A stretch of 64,000 nt of DNA. Source: Coriobacteriaceae bacterium (GTDB taxonomy: Bacteria > Actinomycetota > Coriobacteriia > Coriobacteriales > Atopobiaceae). The notes under the pieces were generated by a model. That model ran no database searches. It saw nothing but the letters and a program-made list of their open reading frames with translations, and was not told where the DNA came from. This document shows, in pieces, positions 4,053 through 6,206 of the stretch (positions within the stretch are counted from its first letter, which is position 1; every line of letters starts with the position of its first letter). The stretch is from contig QOUO01000004.1 of the NCBI GenBank assembly GCA_003862195.1, positions 1 to 64,000 of the forward strand. Reading direction: 5' to 3'. A program made the position numbers and the translations under genes.

Positions 4053-4138
4053 GTCTTACCCGCCTTGCTTGTAGGCGGGGGTGTTGCTATGTGCTGGGCG
4101 CGGGCAGCATGTGCCGGCGCCTGGCCAGGCCTGAGTCG

Positions 4139-6043
4139 CTAGGCCTGGACCTGGGGCTCGGCCGTGGCCTTGGGAGCGTTGGCCTCGGCCTCGGCGGCCG
4201 CGACGTTCTTGCGGCCGAGCTCGGACCACTCGGGCTCCTCGTCCGGCATGGAGCCTGCCTTGGCAGTGAAGAACTCCTTCAGGCAGTTGTAGGCGACGAT
4301 GACGCCCAGGACGACGAGCAGCACGGCGACGAGCAGCTGGAGGCCCTTGGTGAGAAGGACGGGCGCTGCCGCGGTGGTAGCGGTCGCGGGGATGGTGCCG
4401 AAGAGGCCGTAGGTGGCGACGGCGGTCCAGCAGCTGGCGATGCTCATGGCAAGGGAGGTGAAGGTGCAGCAGAGCAGGAAGGCGACGGGCACGTAGAGCA
4501 TCCAGCCCTTGCGGCCGGTGACCTTGCAGAAGACGGCGAGGGTGATCATGGTCATGCCGCCGAGCAGCTGGTTGGAAGCGCCGAAGAGCGGCCAGATGTT
4601 GAGGTAGCCACCGAAGCAGAGAACCAGGCCGACGAGCAGGGAGACCGCGGTGGAGAAGTACACGTTGGTCATGACCTTGCGGACGCCGGTTGCCTTCTCC
4701 TTGGTAGCGGCGGCGGCGTCGTTGGAGCTGTAGAAGAACTCCTGGAAGCTGCTGCGGGCGATGCGGGCGACTGCGTCAAGGGAGGTGAGGGCGAGTGCGG
4801 AGACGTTCATGGTCATGAAGACCGTGGAGAGCGTGTTGTTGAAGCCGATGGTCTCCATGCCGTGGGCGATGCCGGCGGCGAAGATCTGGAACGGGGTGGA
4901 GGCAACGCCCGCGTTGAGGGCACCGGTGCCGGAGGTGTTCATCTGGCTGAACATGATGCCGGCGGTGACGATGGCGATGACGCCGACGAAGGACTCGAGC
5001 ACCATGGCGCCGTAGCCGACGGGGAGCATGTCCTTCTCGTTAGAGACCTGCTTGGAGGAGGTGCCGGAGGACACCAGGCTGTGGAAGCCGGAGAGCGCGC
5101 CGCAGGCGACGGAGACGAACATCAGGGGGAAGAGGTACTGGCCGTTGGCGGCGAGCTTTGTCATGGTGGCGCTGGAAGCGACCATCGGGGCGGTCATGGT
5201 TGCCTGGCCCCTGACGCCGAGCGCGAAGATGCCGAACACGGCGCAGACGATCATGGTGACCATCATGATGGTGGTGAGGTAGTCACGCGGCTGCTTGAGG
5301 GTCTGGATCGGCATGGCGCACGCGAAGACCAGGTAGACCATCACGACGGCGATCCAGCCGTTGGCGCTGAGGTAGATGGGGAACTGCATGCCGACGGCGA
5401 ACATGAGGACGATCGCGGCGACGGCCACGGCGAACTCCTGCCAGCCCTTGAGGTTGAAGCGACGGCGCAGCCAGCCGAAAGCGATGGCGACGAAGGTGAA
5501 GAGGATCGAGATCGTGCCGGCGCAGCCGGAGGCGTAGGACTTGGTGAAGTCGACGGCGCCAGAGGCGGTCGGGGTCATCGCGAACGTGCCGGCGACCATG
5601 GAGGTGAAGGCGGCGATGACGATGGTGCAGAACAGCCAGCTGAAGAGCAGGAACAGGCGACGGCCGGTCTTGCCGATGTACTTCTCGATCAGCTGGCCGA
5701 GCGACTTGCCGTTGTTCTTGACCGAGGCGTACAGCGCGCCGAAGTCATGCACGGCGCCAAAGAAGATGCCGCCGACGAGGACCCACAGCAGGACCGGCAG
5801 CCAGCCGAACATCATCGCGACGATGGTGCCCGTGACGGGGCCCGCGCCGCAGATCGAGCTGAACTGGTGAGAGAAGACGGAGAAGCGAGAGGCGGGCGAG
5901 AAGTCCTTGTCGTCCTCCATGCGGCGTGCGGGCGTGAGTGCCTTGGGATCCACGCCCCAGCTCTTGGCCAGCCATCGACCATAGAGCGCGTAGCCGGCGA
6001 CGAGCGCCACGGCCGCGACGAGTATTACCAGCATTCCGTTCAT
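4139..6043 (-). CDS. cstA: Carbon starvation protein CstA family transporter
   Basis: This 634-aa polytopic membrane protein has the CstA hallmarks: N-terminal YGRWLAKSWGVD, then FSHQFSSICGAGPVTGTIVA, GAVHDFGALYASVKNNG and about 15 hydrophobic helices. CstA/BtsT proteins take up pyruvate and have also been linked to peptide use. It is shorter than the roughly 700-aa enteric forms, as usual in Gram-positive bacteria. The ATG at 6043 is chosen because GAAGGGAG lies just upstream; the ORF extends 22 codons further but through the terminator sequence. Expression is probably attenuated, because a 12-codon leader peptide and an intrinsic terminator precede it. Confidence 0.92.
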   Translation of the reverse strand: MNGMLVILVAAVALVAGYALYGRWLAKSWGVDPKALTPARRMEDDKDFSPASRFSVFSHQFSSICGAGPVTGTIVAMMFGWLPVLLWVLVGGIFFGAVHDFGALYASVKNNGKSLGQLIEKYIGKTGRRLFLLFSWLFCTIVIAAFTSMVAGTFAMTPTASGAVDFTKSYASGCAGTISILFTFVAIAFGWLRRRFNLKGWQEFAVAVAAIVLMFAVGMQFPIYLSANGWIAVVMVYLVFACAMPIQTLKQPRDYLTTIMMVTMIVCAVFGIFALGVRGQATMTAPMVASSATMTKLAANGQYLFPLMFVSVACGALSGFHSLVSSGTSSKQVSNEKDMLPVGYGAMVLESFVGVIAIVTAGIMFSQMNTSGTGALNAGVASTPFQIFAAGIAHGMETIGFNNTLSTVFMTMNVSALALTSLDAVARIARSSFQEFFYSSNDAAAATKEKATGVRKVMTNVYFSTAVSLLVGLVLCFGGYLNIWPLFGASNQLLGGMTMITLAVFCKVTGRKGWMLYVPVAFLLCCTFTSLAMSIASCWTAVATYGLFGTIPATATTAAAPVLLTKGLQLLVAVLLVVLGVIVAYNCLKEFFTAKAGSMPDEEPEWSELGRKNVAAAEAEANAPKATAEPQVQA

Positions 6044-6068
6044 GTGAAACTCCCTTCGGGATTCAAAC

Positions 6069-6109
6069 AAAAAAGTGGGACCGCCTGGCAAGCATCCAAG
6101 CGGCCCCAC
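6069..6109 (-). terminator. Attenuator hairpin in the cstA leader
   Basis: On the coding strand GTGGGGCCGC (6109-6100) pairs with GCGGTCCCAC (6084-6075), ten base pairs with one G-U, followed at once by six T residues (6074-6069). It lies between the leader peptide stop and the cstA ribosome site, so it should stop transcription before cstA unless an alternative fold forms. A second strong hairpin (GCCCGCG with CGCGGGC, about 6123-6147) lies between the leader peptide and the terminator and could be part of the switch. Confidence 0.75.
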
Positions 6110-6167
6110 CTGATACGTCAGCCGCCCGCGAACGAGGCCGCGGGCCGGCTCACCACCGACTCGCGAC

Positions 6168-6206
6168 CTAGCTAATAATTACCTCTGCTAGCGTGCTGAC
6201 GCCCAT
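6168..6206 (-). CDS. Leader peptide of cstA, 12 codons (MGVSTLAEVIIS)
   Basis: A short frame of ATG plus 11 codons starts at 6206 behind a good ribosome site (GAGGAGA, 6220-6214) and ends at TAG 6170-6168. It reads MGVSTLAEVIIS and uses CTA, GTA, ATT and ATT, codons that are rare in this GC-rich genome. An intrinsic terminator follows about 60 bases later. This is the layout of ribosome-mediated attenuation, sensing leucine, valine or isoleucine charging. The ilvB leader peptide in this window ends in the similar EILAII. The function is inferred; the sequence elements are directly visible. Confidence 0.6.
   Translation of the reverse strand: MGVSTLAEVIIS

Follow-up and report, generated by a model that had tools for sequence, protein, structure and literature searches.

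The leader region upstream of cstA

The window, i.e. the whole stretch of 64,000 nucleotides that we have analysed, carries on its minus strand the gene cstA (6043-4139, with its start at 6043 and the ribosome site AAGGGAG), which encodes a CstA family transporter of 634 aa; the protein scores above the cut-off of PF02554 (484.9 bits) and does not reach the equivalog cut-off of the E. coli pyruvate symporter (199.7 of 1188 bits). Upstream of cstA, on the same strand, sequence reading places a leader open reading frame of 39 nt, MGVSTLAEVIIS (6206-6168), that extends from the start codon ATG at 6206-6204 to a stop codon TAG ending at 6168, and that has homologous leaders in 11 genera; its ribosome-binding site, GAGGAG, is located at 6220-6215, with an 8-nt spacer to the ATG. 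The codons of the frame include CTA, GTA, ATT and ATT, as the sequence-only reading of this DNA had described, and the two ATT codons are located just ahead of the final AGC codon and the stop. A sigma-70 promoter scan has given no promoter for this leader.

The leader stop is followed, in this order, by segments A5', A3' and B and by an intrinsic terminator, all on the minus strand. Segment A5' (6167-6155) starts directly after the stop and is the 5' arm of helix P1, which covaries; segment A3' (6149-6137) is common to helix P1 (A5':A3') and helix P2 (A3':B), as indicated by covariation and folding, so that the two helices are mutually exclusive; segment B (gcgggcggctgacg, 6129-6116) pairs either with A3', forming P2, or with the 5' arm of the terminator, forming the putative antiterminator P3. 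The terminator (6110-6069) consists of a 5' arm at 6110-6096, a 3' arm at 6088-6074 and a T6 tract at 6074-6069; of the perfect ten-pair hairpin with T6 that had been read here, the T6 tract is retained, and the stem is longer and imperfect, with 15 pairs, some of them G-U, and a 7-nt loop (-29.7 kcal/mol, z -5.7). For the 221-nt leader as a whole, none of 200 shuffles reaches the same folding stability (z -6.2). Opposite cstA, the plus strand contains an open frame of 694 codons (4091-6175), which is explained by high-GC codon use and is not a gene.

A second leader in the window, located ahead of ilvB, has served as a comparison element: its open reading frame, MVADACTRGCVSFSSEILAII (43749-43684, minus strand), ends in EILAII, is followed by hairpins of its own, and precedes ilvB, with ilvA next in order. 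The ilvB leader is likewise real and uses the rare codons CTA and ATT; its stop codon is immediately followed by a hairpin of 12 pairs, and then by a U-tract terminator that is weaker. The models built from cstA leaders do not recognise the ilvB leader of the window.

Conservation of the leader across Coriobacteriales

We have searched 397 genomes of the order Coriobacteriales for close cstA orthologs, which occur in 127 of them, and have then read the upstream regions: leaders with terminal isoleucine codons and terminators precede cstA in 52 cases from 11 genera, distributed over Atopobiaceae, the Collinsella family and a third family. In the Collinsella family, a leader is present at essentially every cstA upstream region that was read; in Atopobiaceae, it occurs in five genera, one of them represented by a single genome, and the remaining cstA genes of that family, which are many, are without such a leader; the third family contributes one genus. 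The comparison among relatives that the sequence-only reading had proposed has thus found both the isoleucine codons and the terminator conserved.

Alignment of the 52 leaders on their stop codons, e.g. MGVSTLAEVIIII, MTAQLSIISVVII, MNKQLSIIEVVII, MFTHQLNIISVVII, MHQLTIISTIII and MNVRHLSIAIEIIA, has revealed isoleucine at position -2 from the stop in 48 of them; isoleucine makes up 30.7% of all leader residues and is clustered just ahead of the stop. Valine is sporadic, and leucine occurs mainly as one CTA codon, so that of the earlier suggestion that leucine, valine and isoleucine are sensed together only isoleucine is borne out; genus g62 of family f2, where the leader has mixed leucine, valine and isoleucine instead, departs from this pattern. 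The leaders vary in length with the frame kept, and their stop codon is nearly always located directly ahead of P1. The choice of codons is also distinctive: among the 202 isoleucine codons of the leaders, 138 are ATT and 64 are ATC (ATT 68%), compared with 7 ATT and 187 ATC among the 196 isoleucine codons of the window genes (ATT 3.6%), and CTA accounts for 56 of 90 leucine codons in the leaders and for 2 of 273 in the window genes. In many Collinsella leaders, a core LSIIS recurs at positions -9 to -5.

Three additional observations concern the upstream regions of cstA. One Collinsella genome (G185, loci L067 and L071) has two cstA genes, each with a separate isoleucine leader. In another genome (G112), a second leader-like element is located 4.3 kb upstream of the cstA leader (L179:301-416, plus strand), with no obvious gene behind it, and is perhaps a remnant. 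Many of the leaderless cstA genes of Atopobiaceae (L007, L009, L010, L012, L014 and L015) have instead, about 40-70 nt upstream of the gene, a small hairpin whose loop is rich in purines, e.g. ggcaggagaggcctgcc, for which there is no Rfam match.

Alternative helices and their response to the ribosome

In the alignment of cstA leaders, P1 has 95.8% of its cells paired, and P2 has 87.6%; for both helices, the paired cells and the covariation score exceed all 500 shuffles as well as the slid controls, and in sequences such as L129 and L071 joint changes extend across all three segments, A5', A3' and B. P3, formed by segment B and the 5' arm of the terminator, is paired in 95.2% of cells, well above the slid controls; compensatory changes are absent, and it is by complementarity only that this putative helix is indicated. 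With 7 pairs, P3 is weaker than the terminator and would therefore have to act kinetically.

The effect of the ribosome has been explored by mask folding, where only the RNA that the ribosome leaves uncovered is folded, the folds being equilibrium folds and the footprint being assumed. In most species, a ribosome at the stop codon gives P2 and a ribosome at the first isoleucine codon gives P1 together with P3; when the leader RNA is untranslated, P3 is mostly lost. Across 26 leaders, the size of the switch averages 3.38 pairs, against 0.24 in dinucleotide shuffles, with single sequences often falling within the range of the shuffles; some leaders (from G164, G189, G185b and G215) show little or no folding switch. 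For the leader of the window, with a 12-nt reach, P1 and P3 result from a stall at CTA, at GTA or at the first ATT, and P2 forms once the ribosome has reached the second ATT or a later codon; with a 15-nt footprint, the first ATT also gives P2, and a stall at the isoleucine codons nearest the stop no longer switches the fold.

Covariance-model searches and related leaders on other genes

A covariance model for which only leaders of the Collinsella family, 23 in number, were used (model R2) finds the element of the window as its sole match in the 2.42 Mb genome to which the window belongs (E 5.3e-9). In a scan of 396 genomes from across the phylum, only Coriobacteriales give strong matches, and two weak matches lie outside the order (E 3e-4 to 5e-4). 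A second model, R1, was trained on cstA leaders only; its second match in the genome of the window (contig 91, E 0.5) has been rejected, as it has neither a leader frame nor a terminator and resembles coding sequence. At gathering level, Rfam gives no family other than tRNAs in the window and its relatives, permissive Rfam searches of the leader region give no meaningful match, and an identification with the Collinsella-1 motif has been rejected for the same lack of a match.

Trained on cstA leaders, R1 also finds further members: leaders of the same build that are located ahead of genes other than cstA. One such gene encodes a YhjE-like metabolite:H+ symporter, which occurs at 15 loci, each from a different Coriobacteriales genome, and has a related isoleucine leader in 13 of the 15 (transporter loci and leaders: L182-L186, L188-L192, L194; L198-L212); the leader peptides are quite different from those of cstA and mostly end in isoleucine codons, e.g. 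MARLITNIVII, MFQASKHSQIEITNII and MHTIRIMSLII. Of the E. coli MHS proteins with which this transporter was compared, YhjE is the closest (45-48% identical, with 34-35% for ShiA, 31-32% for KgtP and 30-32% for ProP); the match to TIGR00883 is below the cut-off (386-401 bits, cut-off 443). E. coli YhjE has recently been shown to be an L-Ile/L-Val:H+ symporter whose expression is Lrp-dependent (PMC12708883), and the similarity suggests that the Coriobacteriales protein may likewise transport L-Ile and L-Val. The specificity residues of YhjE have been dropped as evidence, as they are mixed (N178 to Y, T276 to V).

The YhjE-like transporter and a leader-bearing cstA never occur in one genome: of the 15 genomes with the transporter, ten are without a close cstA and five have a leaderless one; given shared ancestry, this mutual exclusion is suggestive only. 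Isoleucine-type leaders also precede enzyme genes (L181:304-1314, plus strand; L187 and L178, minus strand), their targets being a 2-oxopent-4-enoate hydratase-like gene, followed once by a ketopantoate reductase-like gene, or a ketopantoate reductase-like gene alone.

Proposed mechanism, alternative explanations and the cargo of CstA

The conservation of the leader frame, its isoleucine codons, P1, P2 and the terminator, together with the complementarity of P3, has been computed directly. The cstA leader is very probably a ribosome-mediated transcription attenuator that is tuned to isoleucine, and on this reading the transporter would serve the supply of isoleucine; the earlier proposal that a leader peptide and a terminator subject cstA to amino-acid attenuation is strongly supported, with the element occurring in 11 genera and P1 and P2 covarying. 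RNA polymerase would make the leader first. With charged tRNA-Ile plentiful, the ribosome would reach the stop and cover A5', A3' would pair with B (P2), and the terminator would form, leaving cstA off. With isoleucine short, we infer that the ribosome would stall at the isoleucine codons and A5' would pair with A3' (P1), in which case B would be free to hold the 5' arm of the terminator (P3), resulting in antitermination in the cell and read-through into cstA. If the leader were left untranslated, upstream sequence would tend to sequester B, and the terminator would form.

An alternative in which attenuation responds to any of the branched-chain amino acids, with CstA importing pyruvate as the precursor of valine, leucine and isoleucine when one of them is short, is unlikely, although some observations speak for it. 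The CstA protein of E. coli takes up pyruvate and influences the use of peptides (PMC7730263, PMC5847655); the leader of the window has leucine, valine and isoleucine codons, and a stall at its CTA or GTA codon would also give P1 and P3; the genome of the window has ilvA, ilvB, ilvC and leuABC, so that pyruvate as a precursor would suit that genome. Against this explanation, the conserved residue of the leaders is isoleucine, related leaders control the YhjE-like transporter, and ilvC over the cut-off is missing in 17 of the 51 genomes with a leader-bearing cstA, all of them at least 92% complete; genomes of the Collinsella aerofaciens group are among those without ilvC, and several of those checked are also without ilvA over the cut-off. 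These genomes should not make isoleucine from pyruvate, yet they have kept the isoleucine leader. The pyruvate rationale of the sequence-only reading, with pyruvate as the precursor of valine and leucine, is weakened by the same findings.

Import of isoleucine itself, of its peptides or of its keto acid offers a simpler explanation than uptake of pyruvate and is the better fit, and we infer that it is for their acquisition that CstA would be made. The cargo of CstA is disputed between peptides and pyruvate, and an isoleucine attenuator in genomes that are apparently unable to make isoleucine leads to a specific prediction on that cargo. A simple replacement of BrnQ by the leader-bearing CstA has been rejected, as many of these genomes also have BrnQ; CstA is therefore not the sole route. 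It is conceivable, at close to even chances, that CstA of Coriobacteriales is an isoleucine acquisition transporter within a small attenuation regulon, where a lineage-specific isoleucine attenuator is common to non-homologous transporters (CstA and the YhjE-like protein) and to keto-acid enzymes.

A mechanism other than codon hunger, where a small molecule, e.g. pyruvate, causes the nascent peptide (LSIIS..II) itself to arrest the ribosome, could account for the recurrent LSIIS core of many Collinsella leaders, but it is improbable: isoleucine and the rare codons persist in leader peptides of widely differing sequence and length, the leaders of the YhjE-like genes encode other peptides, most of which have isoleucine codons at their end as well, and the choice of rare codons points to tRNA supply. 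Even less probable is a T-box or metabolite riboswitch with a short frame in it by coincidence; the conserved structure ahead of a transporter gene speaks for it, but the Rfam searches speak against it, as does the position of the leader stop next to P1 in leaders of varying length and constant frame. As for a chance frame ahead of the ordinary terminator of an upstream transcript, the two isoleucines in 11 codons of the window leader are unremarkable on their own (p 0.14), and the significance of this leader lies in its conservation in relatives and in the independent model match rather than in its own isoleucine count; conservation in 11 genera, covariation and a model match across families leave this explanation with hardly any probability.

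Comparison with known attenuators

The trp, his, ilvGMEDA and ilvBN operons of E. coli are controlled by ribosome-mediated attenuators. The cstA leader resembles them in having a short frame in which the regulated amino acid is abundant, hairpins that exclude each other and an intrinsic terminator before the gene; unlike in these operons, its target is a transporter and not a biosynthetic operon, P1 starts directly after the stop, and the helices would form a chain of P1, P2, P3 and terminator. The proposed isoleucine attenuator of cstA is a known type of mechanism with an unexpected target, and it would take ribosome-mediated attenuation beyond biosynthesis genes, to a transporter gene of common gut bacteria, Collinsella among them.

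Within the same phylum, leader peptides have been described for trp, leuS, ilvB, leuA and ileS (PMC1262725), and an attenuator for ilvBNC in Corynebacterium glutamicum (PMC11857589); they share with the cstA leader short frames, runs of isoleucine, valine and leucine codons, and terminators. These leaders precede biosynthesis or synthetase genes, cstA is not among the genes named in the passages considered, and the codon runs of ilvB are described as overlapping the terminator, whereas in the cstA leader P1 and B lie between the codons and the terminator. The sequence-only reading had found attenuation of CstA unfamiliar, and searches of the open-access literature have indeed yielded no report of an attenuator or leader peptide for cstA. 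In E. coli, cstA is regulated by CRP, Fis and CsrA (PMC7730263), an account that mentions neither attenuation nor isoleucine; the same transporter family would have different inputs in E. coli and in Coriobacteriales. YhjE and its Coriobacteriales counterpart would both be amino-acid regulated, the former being Lrp-dependent and the latter having an isoleucine leader.
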